DNA of 39,704 nucleotides from an uncultured Bacillota bacterium (GTDB lineage: Bacteria > Bacillota_I > Bacilli_A > RF39 > UBA660): positions 1-39,704 of the forward strand of contig CAMVLZ010000001.1 of assembly GCA_947168485.1 (NCBI GenBank), given 5' to 3'. Numbering within the stretch: the stretch's first letter is position 1; the number at the start of each line of letters is the position of its first letter. Position numbers and translations under genes: made by a program. The notes beneath the pieces were generated by a model. It saw only the letters and a list, made by a program, of their open reading frames with translations, was not told where the DNA came from and did no database searches. Positions 21,575 through 39,615 of this stretch are shown one piece after another.

Positions 21575-21648
21575 GCGGATGTAGTTTAATGGTAGAACCT
21601 CAGCCTTCCAAGCTGACTACGGGAGTTCGATTCTCCTCATCCGCTCCA
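21575..21648 (+). tRNA. tRNA-Gly(UCC); probable prophage attachment gene
   Basis: GCGGATG/CATCCGC acceptor, TCAGC-CTTCCAA-GCTGA anticodon arm, TTCGATT T-loop, encoded CCA. Confidence 0.95.
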
Positions 21649-21955: not shown

Positions 21956-22711
21956 TTATGCTACAATTAATTTTCCTTTTTTTAATTTATCTAACATTTG
22001 TATATTTTGTTTAGGAGAACCTACATAATTTTTAATACCATTTGCAGCTGCTATTTTCTTTCTATGTGTAAAAGAATTATCTATATTCATTGACTTTAAA
22101 GCGTCTGCTATTGATCCTGATTTACCTGTGTACTTTTTATAATAAGATATCTTTTTCTTTTTAGGTAAGTATTTCCACTTCTTGTTTAATCCTTTTATAA
22201 TTTTAGTATCATTCATATAGCAACTATCTTCTAATGAATATTCTTTAGGGAAACACCATATACCATATTTGTTCTTATGCCAATTACTTATAGTGTATTT
22301 TGCTTGTGCTATTTCTATATGACAATGTACTCCTGTACTTCTTGCTCCTCCACCTGCTTTAGAACCCATATTTCCTAATTGGTGTCCTTGAGGTACTATT
22401 TGTCCTATTCTAGCGTCAAAGGTTTCATCGTGAGCTGTCATAAATGTAGCATAGTCTACTCTACCATTCGCAAAATTAACTTTTGCCATACTTTGCCACA
22501 AACCTTGTCCGTTTGCTCTATCACTCCATATTAACTTGCAAGTACAAGGAGCGTAATAAGGGTATTTAACTCCTTTTTTTGCTCCTCTTATATCATATGC
22601 TTTTGTTCCTTTATGACTTCCTACTCCATAATCTTGTGTTATGTAAACGTCAGTAAAAGGACATAGAAAGTTTTCTCTTCCATTGCTTTTGCTAGTCTGT
22701 TGTTTCTTCTT
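21956..22711 (-). CDS. Endolysin with M23-like peptidase domain; proposed AAG start
   Basis: HKGTKAYDIRG and GVHCHIEIA zinc motifs; C-terminal wall-binding-like domain. The ATG at 22720 abuts the SD (TAGGAG-ATG, zero spacing); in-frame AAG at 22711 is 9 nt from AGGAG. Confidence 0.8.
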   Translation of the reverse strand, partial: KKKQQTSKSNGRENFLCPFTDVYITQDYGVGSHKGTKAYDIRGAKKGVKYPYYAPCTCKLIWSDRANGQGLWQSMAKVNFANGRVDYATFMTAHDETFDARIGQIVPQGHQLGNMGSKAGGGARSTGVHCHIEIAQAKYTISNWHKNKYGIWCFPKEYSLEDSCYMNDTKIIKGLNKKWKYLPKKKKISYYKKYTGKSGSIADALKSMNIDNSFTHRKKIAAANGIKNYVGSPKQNIQMLDKLKKGKLIVA

Positions 22712-22944: not shown

Positions 22945-23190
22945 TCACTTCCTTTTTATTTCATTGATTTCATTTTGCATATTGTTAATGTTTTCTTCTA
23001 ACTTTGCTAATTTAATTCCAAAATTGTTGTGTACTTGTACTTTTTCATTTAACACTTTTACGTCTTCTTTTAAGTCATTAATCTTGTATTCAAACAATTC
23101 GTTGTTTGCTTTACTTGTTAAAATAGTTGCTACTATTGAAGGTATTGCTACACTTAATCCTGATATCAATGCTGTTATAATTCCGTTCTT
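22945..23190 (-). CDS. XhlA-like small membrane/coiled-coil lysis protein; proposed AAG start
   Basis: In-frame stop TAA just upstream, then AAAGGAGG-TATAAAA-AAG AAC GGA ATT; no ATG/GTG/TTG before a TTG 28 nt after the SD. Confidence 0.65.
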   Translation of the reverse strand, partial: KNGIITALISGLSVAIPSIVATILTSKANNELFEYKINDLKEDVKVLNEKVQVHNNFGIKLAKLEENINNMQNEINEIKRK

Positions 23191-23205: not shown

Positions 23206-23790
23206 TTAATCTACCACTTCAACGGTTAGTTTAGTATATTGTCCTCCACCTACTACAACTGTTCCTGTTGCTCCTGAACGTACCGCAAGATCAATATAAT
23301 CTCCACTTGAAACTGGTACTAATATTTCAGTTATTGCTAAATTCATAAAGTTAGTTGCGTTTGTCCAACGGTTTGCTGCGGTTCCCATTATTGCTCCATT
23401 TCTTCTAATGTTTATTTCAATATCATTAGCAATTCCTCTAACTATTCCACAAGCACTAACCTTTACATAACTAACTCCACTTCCAATTGTTATTCTATGT
23501 GTTGAAGAATTAAATGTTAATTTACTTCCTATTGAAGCATTTAAAGTATTCATATTTAAAGTATAATATGTCCATGCTGTTCCTATACTTACGTCAGTGT
23601 TAGCACTTAATCCTACTGTAATTATATTTTTGTCATATACTTCAGTTTCAACATTTTCTAATTCGGTTGCGTTTGCATTTATTATATTTTTTATTTCGTT
23701 TAGATCACTAGCATTGCATTTATTTATATCAGCTACATTGCTATTTGTGTTTATTGCTACTTTATCTGAATATGATATTCTTTGTGCCTT
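23206..23790 (-). CDS. Baseplate/receptor-binding-like protein; proposed AAG start
   Basis: Beta-rich C-terminal domain; ATG at 23799 abuts the SD AGGAG; AAG at 23790 is 9 nt from it. Confidence 0.6.
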   Translation of the reverse strand, partial: KAQRISYSDKVAINTNSNVADINKCNASDLNEIKNIINANATELENVETEVYDKNIITVGLSANTDVSIGTAWTYYTLNMNTLNASIGSKLTFNSSTHRITIGSGVSYVKVSACGIVRGIANDIEINIRRNGAIMGTAANRWTNATNFMNLAITEILVPVSSGDYIDLAVRSGATGTVVVGGGQYTKLTVEVVD

Positions 23791-23802
23791 AATAATCATC
23801 TC

Positions 23803-25767
23803 CTATTCTATTCTTAACTTTTGTGTTAAGGTGTAATAATTTCCAATTGATAAATTAGAAGCGTCTATTGTCATATATGTTTGACTATTATCACTTGAAT
23901 TAATATCTATTGTATCTATTGCTTTTTCAATATAAATTGTATCTGTTATTGTATAGTCAGTTGTATCGTTTTGTATAATATCTAATCCATATAAACTGAT
24001 AGTTCCGTCATTCCAATTTATTTGTATATTTCCTATCTTTTTACTATTCATAGTGCTTTCTCCAAAGTTGTTAGCTGTATTATTTATATTTGTATTTATG
24101 TTTGTTGCAGTTTGTTGATATTGTATATTTGTATCTTCATCTATTACATTTATTGTATTTATGAAGTTTACATAAAGTGTTTCATATATGTTTTTATTAA
24201 TAATATTATTATCTGTGTTCAATATAATATTAGTTAATCCATACAATTCTTTATCTTTTATATTAATGCCGTTCAACATAGTGTTTGGAACTTCAACAGT
24301 TGAGGTAGTAGTATTTTTAAAAGTTGTTAGATTATACAAATTTCTACCAAATACAATGTTATTATCACTATTATATAGAACACTAGAATGTGGAATTAAA
24401 GAATTATAATTGATATAACTAGTTCCATTGTAATTAAGATTATTATATATTTCTTTTATAATTTTTATGTTGAAGAATGTCCTTCTAAAGTTTTGTGATA
24501 TAAGAGAACTAGACACAATATTATAAATATTAAATGAATAAACCATAGTATATTCCATTACATATTTTTGATTACTTGCTATTTGTATTGGTTCCCATAT
24601 ATCATTTTCTAATCTTTGATAATTAATATCAGCAGTATTATTTGAATAATTAAAGTTGTTGCAATACCACAAATATAATTCTCCGTTCAAACTATTAATA
24701 AATATTCCTTCACGGGACGTGTTATAGTCGAAATTGCCTATATTTTTTATATATATTTCTTTTAATTCATTTGTACTATATGTATATTTATATAATCCCA
24801 CATATCTTGGTATAACTTCGGGAGACCACCTTTGATTATTGATAACAAAATATACATTGTCATAATCTATAAAACTAACCTGGTTTCTCATTGCTACACT
24901 ATCAACATAAGGTCTTATTTCTTCCCTTTCTGATAAAATTTCTGTCAATGTGGTTCCGTCCCAGGAATACGCTGTAATTGGATCAACATTTTTTGTTATT
25001 ATTGCCCTAAAACTTGCATTATCGTCATTATCAAAATATACATTTATTCCTCCATATAAGTAAGAAACGTAAGCAGTTGATACTTTTTGCGACCATTCAT
25101 TGCTAGAACCTACATTTATTGTTAAATTAATTATTCTAACCCCTTCATAATATATATTGTTTCTACTTGTAGACGTTTTTCCTGCTATTATATAATGAGA
25201 AGCTGTTGGGTTTTTTACTATATCAATACAAAAAATATTTTTATAAGCGTCTGGAAAATTATATGATTTTCTTAAACTTACACTATAATCATTGTTATAG
25301 TCAGGTGCTGAAACATTATTTAACATTATAATTCTTTTTGGGTTTGTTGTGATATTATCAGTTCCTGTTGGTAGTGCAAATATTGTACTATCTACACCAA
25401 CAAAAGTTCCGTCTTCAATTTGTATCATTTTTTGAATAGGTCTTAACAACGTGCCACTTGAAAACTCATATATTGTTTTTATAGGTTTCATATTTTGATC
25501 TAACACCATTATAAAACCTCTACTATCATTTAATGCTGTTTTCCCTTCAGGAACATATCCTCCATATAAAATAAAATTACCATTTGTAGTTGACTGAATT
25601 ACGTCCATTGGCATAAAATTTGTATAATTTTCTTCTGGTATAAATCCAGCAAATTCAGTTCTTAAAATATTGTTAATTTCATCTAAATTCTGACGTTCAT
25701 CTGGTGCTGTTGTTGATATATTTCCTGTTATATATTCGCCTAACAACTCTTTATAATCATTTGTCTT
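23803..25767 (-). CDS. Tail fiber/tip protein; proposed AAG start
   Basis: Large ORF after the tail-associated gene. TTG at 25746 lacks a spaced SD; frame extends upstream through AAG ACA AAT GAT TAT AAA GAG, with AGGTGG-7 nt-AAG. Confidence 0.6.
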   Translation of the reverse strand, partial: KTNDYKELLGEYITGNISTTAPDERQNLDEINNILRTEFAGFIPEENYTNFMPMDVIQSTTNGNFILYGGYVPEGKTALNDSRGFIMVLDQNMKPIKTIYEFSSGTLLRPIQKMIQIEDGTFVGVDSTIFALPTGTDNITTNPKRIIMLNNVSAPDYNNDYSVSLRKSYNFPDAYKNIFCIDIVKNPTASHYIIAGKTSTSRNNIYYEGVRIINLTINVGSSNEWSQKVSTAYVSYLYGGINVYFDNDDNASFRAIITKNVDPITAYSWDGTTLTEILSEREEIRPYVDSVAMRNQVSFIDYDNVYFVINNQRWSPEVIPRYVGLYKYTYSTNELKEIYIKNIGNFDYNTSREGIFINSLNGELYLWYCNNFNYSNNTADINYQRLENDIWEPIQIASNQKYVMEYTMVYSFNIYNIVSSSLISQNFRRTFFNIKIIKEIYNNLNYNGTSYINYNSLIPHSSVLYNSDNNIVFGRNLYNLTTFKNTTTSTVEVPNTMLNGINIKDKELYGLTNIILNTDNNIINKNIYETLYVNFINTINVIDEDTNIQYQQTATNINTNINNTANNFGESTMNSKKIGNIQINWNDGTISLYGLDIIQNDTTDYTITDTIYIEKAIDTIDINSSDNSQTYMTIDASNLSIGNYYTLTQKLRIE

Positions 25768-27257: not shown

Positions 27258-29072
27258 CTAACCTCCATAACCATAATTGTAATCATTCTTTGCTCCACCA
27301 GAGAATGTTTTTATTTTTGATACTACTTGTCCTAATGGATCAGTTTCAACATTTACGTTATTAACCACATTTACGTTAGGACTTAATGTATTATTCATTG
27401 TTCCTGTCATACTAGGACTTAAATTAAACATACCATTAATTGCTTTATCTAATTCAGGTCGCATTTTTTCTAATCCTTCAGTATAACCTAACATTGAAAA
27501 TCTACCAATAATTGCAAACTCTTTTGACGGAGAATGAATACCTAGAACATTTTTCATACCTTTTAAAATACTTTTTCCTAGTCCTTTGAATTTATTTATT
27601 ACATAATCTTTCATATCTTTTGCACCATTCCAAAGTCCTTTTATAATATTTTTACCCACGTCTTTCATTTTTGAGAATTCCTTTTTCAAAGCACTAACAA
27701 TATTTGTTATAATCTTCGGAACATTTCTAACCAATGTTGGAATACCCTTGATAATTCCACTCCACAATTTCATAGGAATTTGAATTGCAGCAGCTGCCAA
27801 TTTTGGAAATGCCCTGATTAAAGCACCAACCAATTTTATTATTATAATAGGCGCTTTTTGTTGCAATACTGGAATAGTTGCGATTATTCCGTCAATTAAT
27901 GCGAATATAATTTTTATTCCTAAATCGATAACTAAATCAATGTTCTCTAGCAACTTCATTAATGCGTCTAAAAGTGTTGAAATAACCATAGGAATAAGCG
28001 TTGGAATTATCTTGATTAGAGCATTTATTACCTTTATTGTCATACTTATCATCATACTGATTATAGTAGGTAATGACTTGACTAAAATATTCAAAATGCT
28101 TGGCAATGCAGAAATTAAACCTGTCATTAATGCGCTAACTGATGATATTAACGAAGGTAAAAGTCTATTAATAAACGAAGGCAAACTTTTTGTTATTATT
28201 GTAATTAATCTAGGTAATACCTTCGCAACCCCAACCATTGCTTTTTCAATTATAGGTATTAAATTATTTGCGAATGTTCCAGCTGCACCAACAAATTGAT
28301 CTATGAGTTTGTCTAGGTTCGCTCCGTCTTTTGAAAAACCTGCGATTAAGTTTTCCCACGTTGCTTTCATCATATTCATAGAACCTTGTATTGTTTGACT
28401 TGCTTCTTTTTCGGTTCTATTTAATGCTCCTGCTGCTTTAACATAATGTTGAATAACGTCTAGTATTTGATCGTTTGTTAGTTCTGAAGTATCTTTTATA
28501 TTTTTATTCAAAACTCCACTCTTGTTTGCTGCTTCTATGAAACCTTCTTTAGTCCCTTTGATACCTACATTTAAGTTATCTAAATATGAATAAGTTCCTT
28601 TTAACGCCCAATTTATTGCACCTTGATATTGTTCTACTGTTCCACCATAGGTATTATATAAGTCAGAAGACATTTGTATCATTTTGTTTGTATATTCAAT
28701 AGCATTTGCATTTTTACCTATTCCATTATTAATAATAGAATAAGATCCTTCGAATGCTTTTAAATATTCGTTTTGTGATAGTGTTAAGTTCTTATATGCT
28801 TCTTCACTCATTTTTGCTACTTTTTGCATATTTTGTGAACCCTTACCAAATAATGCCTCTAGTCCACCATTTAATTGCTCGAATTCTGAATATGCTTGAA
28901 CTGATTTTTTAACAAGTCCTGTTATCGCAGCAGTTGCTACTACTGTTCCAGCAACAACACTTTTTCCTATTAAAGAACCTATTCCTCCTAACTTACCTTT
29001 TATTTTAGTAAGTTTGCTGTCCATATCTTTGCTTTCGCCTTTAAAGTAAAATACTACTGAACCACCATTCTT
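27258..29072 (-). CDS. Tape measure protein; proposed AAG start
   Basis: Hydrophobic helical repeats, IKGLWNGAKDMKDYV. Frame extends 16 codons upstream of the annotated ATG (KNGGSVVFYFKGESKD) to AAG located GGAGG-7 nt-AAG. Confidence 0.85.
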   Translation of the reverse strand, partial: KNGGSVVFYFKGESKDMDSKLTKIKGKLGGIGSLIGKSVVAGTVVATAAITGLVKKSVQAYSEFEQLNGGLEALFGKGSQNMQKVAKMSEEAYKNLTLSQNEYLKAFEGSYSIINNGIGKNANAIEYTNKMIQMSSDLYNTYGGTVEQYQGAINWALKGTYSYLDNLNVGIKGTKEGFIEAANKSGVLNKNIKDTSELTNDQILDVIQHYVKAAGALNRTEKEASQTIQGSMNMMKATWENLIAGFSKDGANLDKLIDQFVGAAGTFANNLIPIIEKAMVGVAKVLPRLITIITKSLPSFINRLLPSLISSVSALMTGLISALPSILNILVKSLPTIISMMISMTIKVINALIKIIPTLIPMVISTLLDALMKLLENIDLVIDLGIKIIFALIDGIIATIPVLQQKAPIIIIKLVGALIRAFPKLAAAAIQIPMKLWSGIIKGIPTLVRNVPKIITNIVSALKKEFSKMKDVGKNIIKGLWNGAKDMKDYVINKFKGLGKSILKGMKNVLGIHSPSKEFAIIGRFSMLGYTEGLEKMRPELDKAINGMFNLSPSMTGTMNNTLSPNVNVVNNVNVETDPLGQVVSKIKTFSGGAKNDYNYGYGG

Positions 29073-29091
29073 ATGTATTCCTCCTTTCTTT

Positions 29092-29130
29092 AAAAAAATA
29101 AGAGTTAAGAGTTCTACCTCCTAACTCTTT
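29092..29130 (-). terminator. Terminator/attenuator between major tail protein and tape measure
   Basis: Minus: AAGAGTTA...TAACTCTT then ATTTTTTT. Confidence 0.6.
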
Positions 29131-29141
29131 AAGAGTTTCTA

Positions 29142-29609
29142 TTAACCTGCTGTTGCAGTTCCTATTAAAGTCATTTCGAAAGAGAATTCGCTAACGTCTT
29201 CAGCAGCTCCTCCTAAATCGCTTAATGATAGATTTACGTCCGCAGTATAAGTAGTATAAGATAATGCGCTATTTTCTACTGCTGTTAATAAATCAAATTT
29301 AATTTCAACATTGTTGAATTGTTCTATTGTACCTTCACTTAATAAAGTGTGTACTTTTCCTAATAATGCTAAATCTCCTGCGTTATTTGCATCTAGTTTT
29401 AGTGTTCCTGATAATACAACACTAGCACCAGTAATTAAACGTCTTTGAAGTGCGTCACAATAAACGTAGAAGTCTTGTGTTTCTAAATCAGTATCAATTC
29501 CTACTTCTGAAGTAGTACATACTTTACTCCATACAGGAGTTGCAGTTGTACCAGTATTAATTGATAAATCTTTAATTAATTGTCTATTTGATATAAAGAA
29601 ATTTGCCTT
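29142..29609 (-). CDS. Major tail protein; proposed AAG start
   Basis: Position and beta-rich composition. Track start GTG at 29624 lies inside the SD (GTGAGGAGG); GGAGG-AATAGT-AAG GCA AAT TTC. Confidence 0.7.
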   Translation of the reverse strand, partial: KANFFISNRQLIKDLSINTGTTATPVWSKVCTTSEVGIDTDLETQDFYVYCDALQRRLITGASVVLSGTLKLDANNAGDLALLGKVHTLLSEGTIEQFNNVEIKFDLLTAVENSALSYTTYTADVNLSLSDLGGAAEDVSEFSFEMTLIGTATAG

Positions 29610-31073: not shown

Positions 31074-31880
31074 TTAAACTAATTTTATAATTGCTTCGTC
31101 TCTAACGATTTCAGCTCCGAACATTGCTCTACCTTCAATTACGAACATTCCAGGTAATCCAGGGTATTCACTAAATTGGTTGAAGTTAGAGAAATACATA
31201 TCTCCTGCTACTGCTTCTTCGTTAGTAAAGAAACCTTTATCTCCAGTAGTTAATGTTGCTGAAGCAATTGGGAATATATCTACACCGTAAGCACGTGCAA
31301 CAGTTCCTCTATCTACTCCTTCAACTCCTGCTAGAGTTTCGAATTTTAATAATGAAGTCATTCCAGAAACTAGTTTTCCATATTGAGTTGCTTCTAATCC
31401 TAATTTGTATCTATCATAAGCATTGTTATTGAATAATGTTGCTTTTAAGTTATTGATATCTGCAATTGGATCAGCAGTTAATGTATAACTTTGAGTTGCA
31501 GCAGTTAATTTTCCATAACCATATGTATCGATAGCGTTTGCAATTGCTGCGTCTTCTTGTGCTATTTGACTTTCAATTGCTTGTGCAATGTTTTGTACTC
31601 TTGGATCTACTGCTACTGAATAATGTTTGTCTAATTCTGTTAAATCGATTTTAACACTATCATAAGTTGCTAGTGTTGGTGCAATTGGAGTTGCTCCTAC
31701 TGCGTTTGCTATTGCTACTGGTTTTGTTTTGATAACTTCGATCATAGGAGTTCCAGTACTTCTAATTTCTCCTAAATATGAAGGATTTAAAAAGTTCATG
31801 AATGTTGAACGATATAGTAAATCTTCATATACTTTTCTTACTACTCCTTGTAAGTCTAAATTTAATGCTGTGTAATTCAT
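31074..31880 (-). CDS. Major capsid protein
   Basis: Follows scaffold; FMNLFNPSYLGEIRSTGTPMIEV-type N-terminus; strong AAGGAGATGAAATT-ATG. Confidence 0.8.
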   Translation of the reverse strand: MNYTALNLDLQGVVRKVYEDLLYRSTFMNFLNPSYLGEIRSTGTPMIEVIKTKPVAIANAVGATPIAPTLATYDSVKIDLTELDKHYSVAVDPRVQNIAQAIESQIAQEDAAIANAIDTYGYGKLTAATQSYTLTADPIADINNLKATLFNNNAYDRYKLGLEATQYGKLVSGMTSLLKFETLAGVEGVDRGTVARAYGVDIFPIASATLTTGDKGFFTNEEAVAGDMYFSNFNQFSEYPGLPGMFVIEGRAMFGAEIVRDEAIIKLV

Positions 31881-32489: not shown

Positions 32490-33494
32490 TTACTTATATT
32501 GTTCTATTACGGACTTTTGCTCTTTGATTTTTTGATTAATCTTTCTTATCTTCTGATTAATCTTGTCAATGTCTTCATAACCACCTAATTCTTTATAGAT
32601 TTTTTTATCATTCCTTAATCTACGTTTTTTTAATTCTAGTGCATTTATTTTTTGCAATGAATTATAAACTTCTGGTGGACTTGATACTGAAGGCGTTGTC
32701 TTTATTTCGCTTGAATAGTTTTCAATAGGGTGTTTACAATTTGGGTGCTTTAATCCTCCGTCTAATGCTACTTGTATGTTAGGGTATATTGGATTTACAC
32801 CTGTTAATGAGTAAACTCTATCTTCATAAGGTAAGCAATAAGGACAGCTTCCAAAATGCCCTGGAACATATACTAGATCATTTTCAGTCTTTATTGCGTT
32901 ATCTAATGTTTCATTCCATACACTATTCGTTAAGTTTGTGTTATATACCATACTGTTATAACTTGCTATGTCATGGTACGCTACTATTTGTCCTTTTTTG
33001 TTATAGTAAGGAACTACTTTTTCGACTTTATCGAACTTTGATACTTTTTCCAATAAGTATTGTGCTTTATCTATCTCTTTTGTCTTAATTGTTCCTAAAC
33101 TCTTACCATAATAGTTTGTTATTACGCGTATATACTTATCTCTCGCTTTCTTTTCGTCAAAGTCTGATATTTTATACTTTAATTTCTCAATGTCTTTTAT
33201 TTTAGGTTTTTCGAATACATTATTAACCTCATCTGGATTAATGTCCTTAATCATTTTTTCTACTTTCTCGTAGTTTCTATTTGGTTTTGAAATTATCTTT
33301 TCTATTTCTTTTTTAAAAGTTTCTACTCCAACCATTCCTAGTAAGAACACAAAGTATGTATATTTTGCTTTATCTAATTCTTCGTACTTTTTGTTTTTGT
33401 CTTTATCTACTTCTCGTCTTATGTATTCTTCTATCTCTGCTTCGGTATAACCTTTATCTTGTAAATCTTGAATTACTTTTTCATATTCAAACAT
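32490..33494 (-). CDS. Minor capsid protein (Mu F-like)
   Basis: GSCPYCLPYEDRVYSLTG...GLKHPNCKHPIENY. Confidence 0.75.
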   Translation of the reverse strand: MFEYEKVIQDLQDKGYTEAEIEEYIRREVDKDKNKKYEELDKAKYTYFVFLLGMVGVETFKKEIEKIISKPNRNYEKVEKMIKDINPDEVNNVFEKPKIKDIEKLKYKISDFDEKKARDKYIRVITNYYGKSLGTIKTKEIDKAQYLLEKVSKFDKVEKVVPYYNKKGQIVAYHDIASYNSMVYNTNLTNSVWNETLDNAIKTENDLVYVPGHFGSCPYCLPYEDRVYSLTGVNPIYPNIQVALDGGLKHPNCKHPIENYSSEIKTTPSVSSPPEVYNSLQKINALELKKRRLRNDKKIYKELGGYEDIDKINQKIRKINQKIKEQKSVIEQYK

Positions 33495-34834
33495 TAGATT
33501 TCTCCAAATTCTACATTAATCCTATCTGCTTCCTTTTCGTATTCTTCTACTAAATCGTCAGTTTCTATGTCTTCATCTATTAATTTATTTAATAATGGAG
33601 CAACTATCTTAACTCTTGTCTTATATGGTATTGCCATTGTTCTTTGGATTTTATTTAAAACGTCTATCTTTTTCATATCGTCAAATCTTTCGTTAGAACC
33701 ATAGTCCCACATTAATTCAGTAGGTAATTCATTTATAGTTATGTTTTGACTTTGTTGTAGTCTTACTATGTTTGCAAGTAAGTTATCTATTTGACTTGAT
33801 AATTGTGTTTTAATTGCTTCTATCATCATTTCACTTGCATTTGCTGATAATTCTACGTTTGCTTTATTCATATATGCGTCTTTTTCATAACCGAATGAAG
33901 CTGTACTTAATCCTGCCATTTGAATTATTTGATAGTCATAGAATTTAAAAGACTTTTCGTATTCATCTATTCTTATATTTCCTTGTAAGAATTCAAATAG
34001 TTGTTTATCTTTATCTCCAGGAAGTAATGTAAAGTAGTCATTTAAACTATTAACACTCATTGTTCTTACGTTATAAGTTGTATCTCCTGGAACAAATTTC
34101 AATGGATTACTTGTTGTTTGATAGTGTTCTGTTGCTACTATCTTTGTTTTTGTCTTTTCAATTTCTTCAGCTATTGTATTTACAATTAACATTTCTTCAT
34201 TTAATAGTTTTTCACTATCTTTAAAGAAGTTTTCTCCAATGTCTATATTTACTAATACTTCATAAGGAAGGTTATACACTGGAAGGTATTCATTTCCCGT
34301 TAGATTATTGAAACGTCCTAGTTGTATTCTAGTCCATTCTTTTGCATTCTTTGTCTTTTCGAATGCTTCAAATTCAATTGTACTTGTTCCTTCTTCTATC
34401 TCAATGTGTCTTTTTAACATTAATTGAGTATCTTCTATATCGAAGTCTTGTATAATATCTGCTTCTTTTACTTTGTCAAATTTTTGTACTAGATTATGTA
34501 TATCATTCTTTTTGATACATTCTAGGTATACTTTATCTTCATATTTATGTAAGTAAATGAAACTTTCTTCTTCATATACTGCTAGTTCTAATGCTTCTTT
34601 TAAAGTAGGCATTAACCAACCTATTTCTAGTCCTTCTGTTTGTGTCATTAGTTCACTTCCAAAGACTTGATTAACTATATATGAAGCGATTTTCTTTGCA
34701 GTTGGAGCAACAACATATTTACTTTCGTATTTTATGTTTGGCACTCCATTTGTCATTCCTGGTACTGATACCTTTGTTTTTACTTGTATATAAGGTGCTT
34801 GTAATACATTAAAAGGTCTTAAACTTCCGTTCTT
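33494..34834 (-). CDS. Portal protein; proposed AAG start
   Basis: Portal-like sequence. Frame extends 26 codons upstream of ATG 34756 (KNGSLRPFNVLQAPYIQVKTKVSVPG) to an AAG after AGAGGAG+9 nt; in-frame TAG just before. Confidence 0.8.
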   Translation of the reverse strand, partial: KNGSLRPFNVLQAPYIQVKTKVSVPGMTNGVPNIKYESKYVVAPTAKKIASYIVNQVFGSELMTQTEGLEIGWLMPTLKEALELAVYEEESFIYLHKYEDKVYLECIKKNDIHNLVQKFDKVKEADIIQDFDIEDTQLMLKRHIEIEEGTSTIEFEAFEKTKNAKEWTRIQLGRFNNLTGNEYLPVYNLPYEVLVNIDIGENFFKDSEKLLNEEMLIVNTIAEEIEKTKTKIVATEHYQTTSNPLKFVPGDTTYNVRTMSVNSLNDYFTLLPGDKDKQLFEFLQGNIRIDEYEKSFKFYDYQIIQMAGLSTASFGYEKDAYMNKANVELSANASEMMIEAIKTQLSSQIDNLLANIVRLQQSQNITINELPTELMWDYGSNERFDDMKKIDVLNKIQRTMAIPYKTRVKIVAPLLNKLIDEDIETDDLVEEYEKEADRINVEFGEI

Positions 34835-35376: not shown

Positions 35377-36740
35377 ATTTGAGGACACCTTCCTGTATCT
35401 ACGAATACTCTTATTATGTATCTTAATGCGTCTATGCTATGATCTAATTCTTTCTTATATACATTTGTTCCTGTTATCTCACTTTTTATTTTGTCATATT
35501 GATAACTTTCTAATTCTATAAGTCCTTCATCTTTTCCACTAAATACTGGAGTTCCGTCTTCAGTAAAATATCTTATGCTAGGAGTGTCTAATACTTTAAG
35601 GAATTCTTTATAGAATAAACTTTGTAAATGTTCTACTCCTTCTGATACACTTCCTGCGCCTTTTTTAGAAAGACTATGGTGTATTCCGTCAGCTATAAGT
35701 CTATTATCAAAATGACTTGCTTCACTATCTATTACTGTGTCAGTTATTGGAACATTGTCATATTGTTTTCCTAGATATCTTATGAAGTGTACTAATTGCC
35801 TTGAATAGAATTCAGTAGTAGGGTTATCTCCTTCTCTTGAAGGATCATGATAGTATATTCCTAATCTTACTAACTCCCAACAATTTTGTACTTTATCATA
35901 AACAAGCGCTATTGGTACAAAAGTAGTGGGATTTACACTACCATAATCTATTCCTATTCCTATTTCTCTTATTATGTAATTGTCTAATGAGTTAATAGTT
36001 GGAACATTTGGAAACACTCTACCTTCTGCAACAGTCCATTGATTATATATTTTTTGTTTCTTTAATGTATCATCTGGAAACATATCTAATACTTTCTTTA
36101 TTGCTTCTTCAGTATTTAGTAAAGGATTATCATAAGGGAAGAATGTATAATGCTTCGCTTCTGGTTTATTATCTATGTATTTAATTTTATAAGGGTGTCT
36201 ACTACTACCTTCAACATTGAAACTATGTATTGTCTTTAAATATGGATGATTAGCGAATGATACCTCTCTACCAGGTAATTCATCGAAAGACGCTTGTAAT
36301 TGTCTTTGAGTGTATATTCTTGCGCTTTCGTCTACCCATTCTAGTATTAATGGTTTTCCTAGTATCTTGTTGAAACTTGTTATGTTGTTAAATCCAAAGA
36401 AGAATATCTTTAAATTGTATATCTTTAGATACTTTTCTTCTGAACTACTCCAACTCAATTCGTATTCACTTTTATTGCTCCAACCAAACTTATTGAATAT
36501 TTGTAAGAAGTTCTCTACTATATTTGATTTTAGAGTATCAATAGTCCAACCTACTATGCAACCATTGTATTGTTTATCTTTGTCATAGTTATATAGATTT
36601 TTAGCATATTCTAAAATAGAATGACATATTGAGAAAGTCTTTCCACTTTGAGCTGATCCTAATACATATATTTCAGGTATGTTAGGACTAGTTATATCAT
36701 TCTTCAGTTTTAGTTGTTTCTTCGAAAGAGTTAAGTACAT
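35373..36740 (-). CDS. terL: Terminase large subunit
   Basis: VLGSAQSGKTFSICHSI (Walker A), LILEWVDESARI (Walker B), IGIDYGSVNPTTF and DSEASHFDNRL (nuclease). Confidence 0.9.
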   Translation of the reverse strand: MYLTLSKKQLKLKNDITSPNIPEIYVLGSAQSGKTFSICHSILEYAKNLYNYDKDKQYNGCIVGWTIDTLKSNIVENFLQIFNKFGWSNKSEYELSWSSSEEKYLKIYNLKIFFFGFNNITSFNKILGKPLILEWVDESARIYTQRQLQASFDELPGREVSFANHPYLKTIHSFNVEGSSRHPYKIKYIDNKPEAKHYTFFPYDNPLLNTEEAIKKVLDMFPDDTLKKQKIYNQWTVAEGRVFPNVPTINSLDNYIIREIGIGIDYGSVNPTTFVPIALVYDKVQNCWELVRLGIYYHDPSREGDNPTTEFYSRQLVHFIRYLGKQYDNVPITDTVIDSEASHFDNRLIADGIHHSLSKKGAGSVSEGVEHLQSLFYKEFLKVLDTPSIRYFTEDGTPVFSGKDEGLIELESYQYDKIKSEITGTNVYKKELDHSIDALRYIIRVFVDTGRCPQI

Positions 36741-36924
36741 TTTCTACCTCTTTTAATTTCTTGTCTACCTTTTTAAGTTTCTTACTTGCTTCTTTACCAC
36801 ATTCACTTTTAACGTCTTCAATAATAAGTTCTTTCTTTTCTAATTGTAGTTTTTCTTTTTCACTTACTATTCTTCCGTTGCTGTCCTTAATAAGATAGTT
36901 CTTGCCTACTTTGATAAACTCCTT
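36697..36924 (-). CDS. Small coiled-coil phage protein; proposed AAG start
   Basis: Track start GTG at 36933 lies inside the SD (AAAAGGAGTGATT); GGAG-8 nt-AAG GAG TTT ATC. Confidence 0.55.
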   Translation of the reverse strand, partial: KEFIKVGKNYLIKDSNGRIVSEKEKLQLEKKELIIEDVKSECGKEASKKLKKVDKKLKEVENVLNSFEETTKTEE

Positions 36925-38829: not shown

Positions 38830-38904
38830 TGGTGGCAGGGAAGGGATTTGCACCCTTGTTCTTCAGCTTAAGAGACTGACGAGATACTACTTCTCCACCC
38901 TGCA
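38830..38904 (-). tRNA. Phage initiator-like tRNA with anticodon CUU (would be auto-called tRNA-Lys(CUU))
   Basis: TGCAGGG TG GAGA AGTAGTA TCTC G TCAGT CTCTTAA GCTGA AGAAC AAGGG TGCAAAT CCCTT CCCTGCC A CCA. Full cloverleaf; U1xC72 mismatch, A11:U24, G26, CTC-anticodon-TAA loop and xxCAAAT T-loop match bacterial tRNA-fMet; anticodon CAU changed to CUU. Confidence 0.88.
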
Positions 38905-38926
38905 ATATAATGTACTTTATAAGCAC

Positions 38927-38985
38927 CATAGAATAGATAGACACAATGTCCTCAAGGGCGTTTGAATTACACTATCTATTCTACG
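38927..38985 (-). ncRNA. Hairpin element upstream of the initiator-like tRNA
   Basis: 12-bp perfect inverted repeat TAGAATAGATAG (38929-38940)/CTATCTATTCTA (38972-38983), extendable to 14 bp with a U-G pair valid on the minus strand; 31-nt loop. Confidence 0.45.
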
Positions 38986-38996
38986 CTATCTACAAA

Positions 38997-39380
38997 TTAC
39001 CACCTTTGTTTGTATTCTCTTTTTATTAATGTTTTGCCTTTAGAGTTTTTATCGTTTCTATGTTGATATTCAAAATCTTGTAATAAGTATTCTACTATTT
39101 CTCTTTGTTCTAATGTAGGTTCATGTAATTGGTTATTTATTATCTTGAATATTTTATTTAATGTTATGTATGTGTTTATGTCTTTATATTCTATTAAATG
39201 TAAATATTGATGAGGTGTAGACATTAATAATGCAATATTATTTTGTTCTAGTTTTCCACCAAATTCTTTTTTTATAATATGATGAGCTGTTAAATCTTTT
39301 TTAACTAATTTGTAATTCATCCAGTCTAAATTGCTTATTGGTTTATATATTTTTAACATTTCTCTAGTTATTTGTTTCAT
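38997..39380 (-). CDS. HNH-type endonuclease-like protein
   Basis: LTAHHIIKKEFGGKLEQNNIALLMSTPHQYLHLIEY. Confidence 0.7.
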   Translation of the reverse strand: MKQITREMLKIYKPISNLDWMNYKLVKKDLTAHHIIKKEFGGKLEQNNIALLMSTPHQYLHLIEYKDINTYITLNKIFKIINNQLHEPTLEQREIVEYLLQDFEYQHRNDKNSKGKTLIKREYKQRW

Positions 39381-39432: not shown

Positions 39433-39462
39433 CAAAAAAGATAGAATTTATGATCCTATCTT
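39433..39462 (-). terminator. Intrinsic terminator
   Basis: Minus AAGATAG-gatcataaatt-CTATCTT followed by T-run. Confidence 0.6.
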
Positions 39463-39615
39463 ATATATTTTATATTTTGATTTGTTCCTGAATAGAAAAA
39501 ACTTCTTTATTCCTTCTTTAGTAAAATGACAAGCGTCTTTGAACCATTCGCTTTCTTTGTCAAATATTAATGTTGGTTCTGATATATAACCTGTTTTAGT
39601 TTCTATAATATACTT
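39448..39615 (-). CDS. Small phage protein (55 aa); proposed AAG start
   Basis: Not in ORF track. AAAAGGAG-ATGAGTTTT-AAG TAT ATT ATA GAA; ATG abuts the SD, AAG is 9 nt away. Confidence 0.5.
   Translation of the reverse strand, partial: KYIIETKTGYISEPTLIFDKESEWFKDACHFTKEGIKKFFLFRNKSKYKIYKIGS

Follow-up and report, generated by a model that had tools for sequence, protein, structure and literature searches.

Probable initiation at AAG codons in a Bacillota prophage that encodes an initiator-like tRNA with anticodon CUU

Introduction

The choice of start codon is taken as fixed by one initiator tRNA that reads AUG, GUG or UUG. A tape measure gene in a prophage of an uncultured Bacillota bacterium raises the question of how a protein begins when its reading frame offers none of these codons at the expected place. 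Upstream of the ATG at 29024 this frame contains no ATG, GTG or TTG and runs open as far as a TAG at 29121-29123. A sequence-only reading of this locus had proposed that the gene starts 16 codons further upstream, at an AAG. Here we ask whether this AAG is a true start codon, whether it stands alone, and what molecule could read it.

The prophage, its host and its relatives

The window, that is the whole stretch of DNA analysed (39,704 nucleotides), is the left third of a 114.5-kb contig, and the host assembly comprises 1.26 Mb in 45 contigs and is 91.5% complete. The window carries late genes of an integrated prophage whose insertion site is the 3′ end of a tRNA-Gly gene (21575-21648).

21635-21648, plus strand: left attachment core CCTCATCCGCTCCA, 14 bases within the 3′ end of tRNA-Gly; second copy at contig position 51091-51104

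The repeated core sets the size of the prophage at about 29.5 kb, and the integrase gene adjoins the right copy. The late genes occupy the minus strand between about 39 kb and the endolysin gene at 22 kb. The host possesses fmt (Fmt) and lysS (class II LysRS) as well as its own tRNA-Lys(CUU). No fMet tRNA of the host itself turned up in this incomplete assembly; a genome of the same genus (G001) has a normal one.

Relatives were found by capsid, terminase and Dit queries as IMG/VR viral contigs with the same gene order (siphophage contigs L036-L048 and L071-L079), and further ones in one genome of the same host family (G308, prophages L015 and L050) and on one GTDB contig (L080), which likewise share the gene order of the prophage. 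Identity of the capsid protein to that of the prophage is 81-90% in the IMG/VR contigs from the capsid query and about 46-48% in the two genomic relatives. Wherever the prophage has AAG, all these relatives have ATG (or GTG). Searches with the tape measure protein gave no close relative in IMG/VR or GTDB contigs, and an exact-pattern search of IMG/VR found no near-identical phage with either ATG or AAG at the tape measure start.

The start of the tape measure gene

27258-29072, minus strand: tape measure protein gene, 604 codons from AAG at 29072-29070, with AGGAGG 7 nt upstream

The identity of the gene is supported both by family similarity (PHROG tape measure families, 1e-41) and by its position after the major tail protein gene. 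On the minus strand TTTAAAGAAAGGAGGAATACAT stands directly before the AAG at 29072, the upstream region reads AAAGGAGG-AATACAT-AAG, and the frame continues as AAG AAT GGT GGT TCA GTA GTA TTT TAC TTT AAA GGC GAA AGC AAA GAT before ATG 29024. The coordinates and claims of the sequence-only reading on this start were right, though it overlooked the like replacements in further genes of the prophage and the CUU tRNA. It had suggested asking whether the peptide GGSVVFYFKG is conserved in related phages with M just before it, and this is the case: the relatives begin with MNNANGGNVIYHFLGDTKE, MANGGDVIYHFKGD, MATGGTVTFNFKGD and MQGAEVLTRFKADTKDFDSK, each after a Shine-Dalgarno (SD) sequence of the same type, and the refuting outcome, relatives starting at MDSKLTKIKG, was not seen. 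Among 13 relatives, the first Met coincides with the AAG column (offset 0) in eight; in the remaining five, which carry a short N-terminal extension, it lies 1-3 residues further upstream. At the DNA level, the relatives show the major tail stop followed by an inverted repeat, the SD and an ATG opening MNNANGGNVIYHFLGDTKE, MNSANGGDILYHFKGDT, MQGAEVLTTFKADTKEMD and similar sequences. The AAG start is thus supported as more than chance, because the relatives conserve the extra N-terminus with ATG at this very place and because the prophage has at least five further genes in which AAG likewise replaces ATG.

Two other starts were considered. Initiation at the internal ATG 29024 is rejected, since the 16 residues upstream of it are conserved in the relatives. 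A minus-one frameshift from ATG 29068 finds no slippery motif by eye and would leave the other genes unexplained.

The out-of-frame ATG at 29066-29068 (minus strand) lies 4 nt past the initial base of the AAG. The ORF that begins there has only 4 codons (MVVQ-stop) and overlaps the tape measure start, and this ATG might be a decoy that diverts the normal initiator. As a separate observation on the region between the major tail and tape measure genes (29060-29141, minus strand), the relatives carry there an inverted repeat and then T-rich DNA, at the usual place of tail-chaperone genes; no tail-chaperone frameshift pair is seen.

Other genes of the prophage and the host control

All frames of the prophage were scanned for SD-supported codons. 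Every AAG start has a good SD at 6-9 nt.

33494-34834, minus strand: portal gene, AAG start; all 11 aligned relatives have ATG at offset 0
29142-29609, minus strand: probable major tail protein gene, AAG start with SD AGGAGG at spacing 6
23803-25767, minus strand: tail protein gene downstream of Dit, with an AAG start; all 8 relatives have ATG at offset 0
36697-36924, minus strand: small gene between the small and large terminase genes, AAG start
23206-23790, minus strand: late gene of unknown function, AAG start; relatives begin MAKITYANKVA (2 of 2, offset 0)
22945-23190, minus strand: small late holin-like gene, AAG after AGGAGG at spacing 7
21956-22711, minus strand: endolysin (M23-like peptidase) gene, likely AAG start at 22711; no confirming relative
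39448-39615, minus strand: short gene, likely AAG start, AAGGAG-ATGAGTTTT-AAG; no confirming relative

In at least six genes AAG stands at the place of the homologous ATG. The correspondence is plain in the portal protein, which begins MNGKLRASEIL in relatives and KNGSLRPFNVL in the prophage (no match was found among annotated phages), and in the tail protein starting at 25767, with MTNDYKKN in relatives against KTNDYKEL; the role of the latter is given from its position. For the small gene starting at 36924 the relatives read MEFIKMGDKYLIKNSNG against KEFIKVGKNYLIKDSNG in the prophage. The script placed their Met at the AAG column in 7 of 10, and in the other three it chose an upstream ATG although an M stands at the column. 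The major tail protein, named from its position without a PHROG or Pfam match, has relatives that start MNEFYVTNR or MNWFISNR, with ATG at offset 0 in 5 of 15 and at +1 in 7 of 15. In the gene starting at 23790 an ATG at 23799 abuts the SD, so that this SD cannot serve it, and in the endolysin gene ATG 22720 likewise abuts AGGAG. The gene starting at 23190 is holin-like by position and hydrophobic N-terminus, and its single distant relative starts 3 residues later.

An early gene outside the window (L051, contig position 48009, minus strand) shows AGGAGG-GATGACTT-AAG with an ATG 9 nt further on. For this gene, the endolysin gene and the short gene at 39615, AAG starts are likely, judged from the position of the SD alone. 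If the early gene does use AAG, the AAG set would not be purely late.

As a whole, the set covers the portal, tail tube, tape measure, tail, holin-like and probably endolysin genes, and the head genes have ATG (capsid, scaffold). The capsid gene served as a control.

31074-31880, minus strand: probable capsid gene, keeps ATG (offset 0 in 10 of 10 relatives); named by its position and size, without a PHROG match

ATG is kept, in the prophage and its relatives, in the capsid, scaffold, large terminase, Dit and several connector genes. An SD-supported AAG without a nearby SD-supported canonical start was counted in 9 of 56 prophage ORFs. Among 390 host ORFs there were 2 when only the first 20 codons were considered (Fisher p = 2e-7) and 6 at any depth (p = 1e-5). 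The host control consisted of about 400 kb of host DNA, and the gene-finding and SD rules were our own and rough. One of the nine prophage ORFs is the scaffold gene, where an AAG directly follows an ATG aligned with that of the relatives, and is probably a false count. AAG starts are not used by the host genes.

An initiator-like tRNA with anticodon CUU

38830-38904, minus strand: initiator-like tRNA, anticodon CUU, encoded CCA; found by ARAGORN and Rfam (tRNA, 55.8 bits)

This tRNA gene is flanked by an HNH gene and by the first genes of the late block, 10 kb upstream of the tape measure gene, and its anticodon CUU is cognate to AAG. Positions 1 and 72 form a U1xC72 mismatch, and the remaining pairs of the acceptor, D, anticodon and T stems all form. 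The molecule thus meets the initiator criterion of no Watson-Crick pair at 1:72, and also that of purine 11 with pyrimidine 24 (A11:U24, as against C11:G24 in the host tRNA-Lys). G2:C71, C3:G70, A73 and A57 are further features of the initiator type. The closest overall sequence is likewise an initiator, with identity at 56 of 77 positions to the fMet tRNA of a host-family genome (L115), 51 of 77 to that of the genus (L125) and only 33 of 77 to the host tRNA-Lys(CUU). Among tRNAs of related genomes the best alignments are almost all to initiators, with scores up to 34, whereas elongators reach at most 18.5, and the full-length BLAST matches in the phage collection are annotated tRNA-Met. An ordinary elongator tRNA-Lys(CUU) would have a paired 1:72 and a Y11:R24 body, and this criterion is not met. 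Also unmet is the initiator criterion of three G-C pairs in the anticodon stem (29-41, 30-40, 31-39), for which the molecule has A29-U41, G30-C40 and U31-G39, so that only 30-40 is kept, and that of CAU/methionine. Since the anticodon is CUU and not CAU, we call it initiator-like and not tRNA-fMet.

The loops of the CUU tRNA are unusual, with G55 in the T-loop (TGCAAAT) and a D-loop without GG (AGTAGTA) (38885-38891 and 38846-38852, minus strand), as if the 18-55 contact had been changed on both sides. Just upstream of the tRNA, between it and the HNH gene, 38905-38997 (minus strand) folds into a strong hairpin (-25.7 kcal/mol, z -3.3) without a U-tract, and this hairpin may serve in processing or regulating the tRNA transcript.

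We looked for a second case in several collections. No tRNA was found in 131 kb of ten relatives that use ATG, although not all of these contigs cover the homologous locus. Strict patterns found no second initiator-like tRNA with CUU or another anticodon changed at the middle base in IMG/VR, and none was found in 326 genomes of the class and 337 of the order, where the prophage's own tRNA was recovered as a positive control. The only other pattern match in these genomes (G748) was not a tRNA, and another candidate (L102) was a chance match in GC-rich coding DNA. No second phage combining an AAG start with a matching tRNA was found in collections that were validly covered only in part.

Proposed mechanism

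We hold it highly probable that AAG is the true start codon of a set of prophage genes and that it is read by the initiator tRNA which the phage encodes. The case comes from one genome, without RNA or protein data, but from many separate codons within that genome.

The CUU tRNA would have been derived from a bacterial initiator tRNA(fMet) by a change of anticodon from CAU to CUU. Its expression is inferred: on induction it would be transcribed and then charged. Lysine is the most likely amino acid, since its identity elements are the anticodon and A73, and a human UUU anticodon moved into an initiator confers lysine identity (PMC9976931). The charging, too, is an inference, as is the next step, in which the tRNA would be formylated because its positions 1 and 72 are unpaired. 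In E. coli the unpaired 1:72 is the main determinant of formylation, with A73, G2-C71 and C3-G70 helping, and formylation is independent of the amino-acid side chain (PMC9976931). Laboratory-made initiators whose anticodon is CUA start proteins from UAG (PMC8576571). Taking this literature together with the Fmt and LysRS of the host, the simplest reading is therefore a lysylated and formylated AAG initiator.

The inferred final step would set this tRNA in the P site over AAG, and here lies the weak point of the AAG-initiator reading, namely the anticodon stem. A1339 and G1338 of 16S rRNA contact pairs 30-40 and 29-41 (PMC11497404), and an E. coli initiator with a UA/CG/AU anticodon stem, where the middle pair is lost too, is inactive (PMC10486304). 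The 30-40 pair is kept in the CUU tRNA.

The portal, tail tube, tape measure, tail, holin-like and probably endolysin proteins would be made from AAG, and the capsid, scaffold and large terminase from normal ATG, so that completion of the virion and lysis would depend on the phage tRNA. The system would probably amount to a natural, phage-encoded orthogonal initiation, in which a CUU initiator and a private AAG start (formyl-lysine or lysine) serve the portal, tail and lysis genes, none of which would be made without the phage tRNA.

Purpose and alternative explanations

The mechanism is well supported, and the purpose is open; any regulatory purpose is inferred. It is possible that a neutral ratchet was at work, the starts drifting to AAG once the tRNA existed. 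A different purpose for the same mechanism would be escape from anticodon cleavage by VapC-type toxins, the AAG starts having followed the altered initiator. VapC toxins do cleave initiator tRNA, and anticodon-loop changes in phage tRNAs avoid such nucleases (PMC10264068). Against this, no PIN/VapC domain was found in the host (genome about 92% complete), and most phage genes still need ATG initiation. We regard escape as unlikely, though it stays in view.

Initiators can pair with non-AUG codons at a low level. AAG could be a true start that is mispaired by the fMet-tRNA of the host with the help of a strong SD, the phage tRNA being an ordinary elongator tRNA-Lys(CUU), and the good SD before every AAG start agrees with this. 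Against it, the host genes lack AAG starts. The CUU tRNA has the 1:72 mismatch and A11:U24 typical of initiators and is like fMet, not Lys, a tRNA-Lys(CUU) is already present in the host, and nothing would explain why anticodon and start codon match. We consider this account improbable.

Decay of the prophage has still less support and appears very improbable. Prophages do decay, and in the tape measure gene an in-frame ATG lies 16 codons further on, from which translation might begin if the start codon had been mutated away, other genes being dead or starting at internal ATGs too. However, every loss gives AAG, in long intact frames with intact SDs; no other type of broken start was seen, and the integrase and structural genes are intact, as are the attachment repeats. 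Sequencing or assembly error, for which only the fragmented and incomplete assembly speaks, can practically be dismissed, as it would have to make the same substitution exactly at the start codon of at least six genes and a matching tRNA besides, leaving the capsid, scaffold and other genes of the same contig unaffected.

Relation to known systems

In the open-access literature we found no bacterial AAG start codon, no natural initiator tRNA with a changed anticodon and a matching start codon, and no earlier description of a private phage start signal. If the AAG-initiator reading is true, it would represent a natural recoding of initiation, with proteins that probably begin with lysine, and a new gating of phage lysis. 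It would also explain missed 5′ ends in phage annotation, AAG starts being invisible to gene finders, and would offer synthetic biology a ready-made orthogonal initiator pair.

There is a likeness to code 15 crAss-like and other gut phages with recoded stop codons, in which a phage-encoded suppressor tRNA also changes the reading of phage genes. Their recoding is concentrated in structural and lysis genes, and a role in the timing of lysis has been suggested for it (PMC10879173). There, however, a stop codon is read in elongation, whereas the prophage described here has a sense codon read in initiation by a tRNA with an initiator-type body; its frames are open under table 11 and CUU reads a sense codon, so that it does not meet the criterion of stop-codon reassignment. 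The engineered metY-CUA (UAG start) and Mj-itRNA likewise combine an initiator of altered anticodon with a matching non-AUG start and another amino acid (PMC8576571, PMC10486304), but these are laboratory constructs, and the CUU/AAG pair is apparently natural.

Among phage tRNAs, the best BLAST relative in the phage collection is the initiator-type tRNA-fMet of Caulobacter phage CcrBL9 (79% over 93%), which is annotated as tRNA-Met, whereas the tRNA described here has CUU and is paired with AAG starts. The odd peer among the best alignments is a Gordonia phage tRNA-Glu(ctc). In Gordonia phage Mareelih (L101, 1479-1625) there are two annotated tRNA-Glu(ctc), whose D and anticodon arms (A11:U24) resemble those of initiators and of the CUU tRNA.
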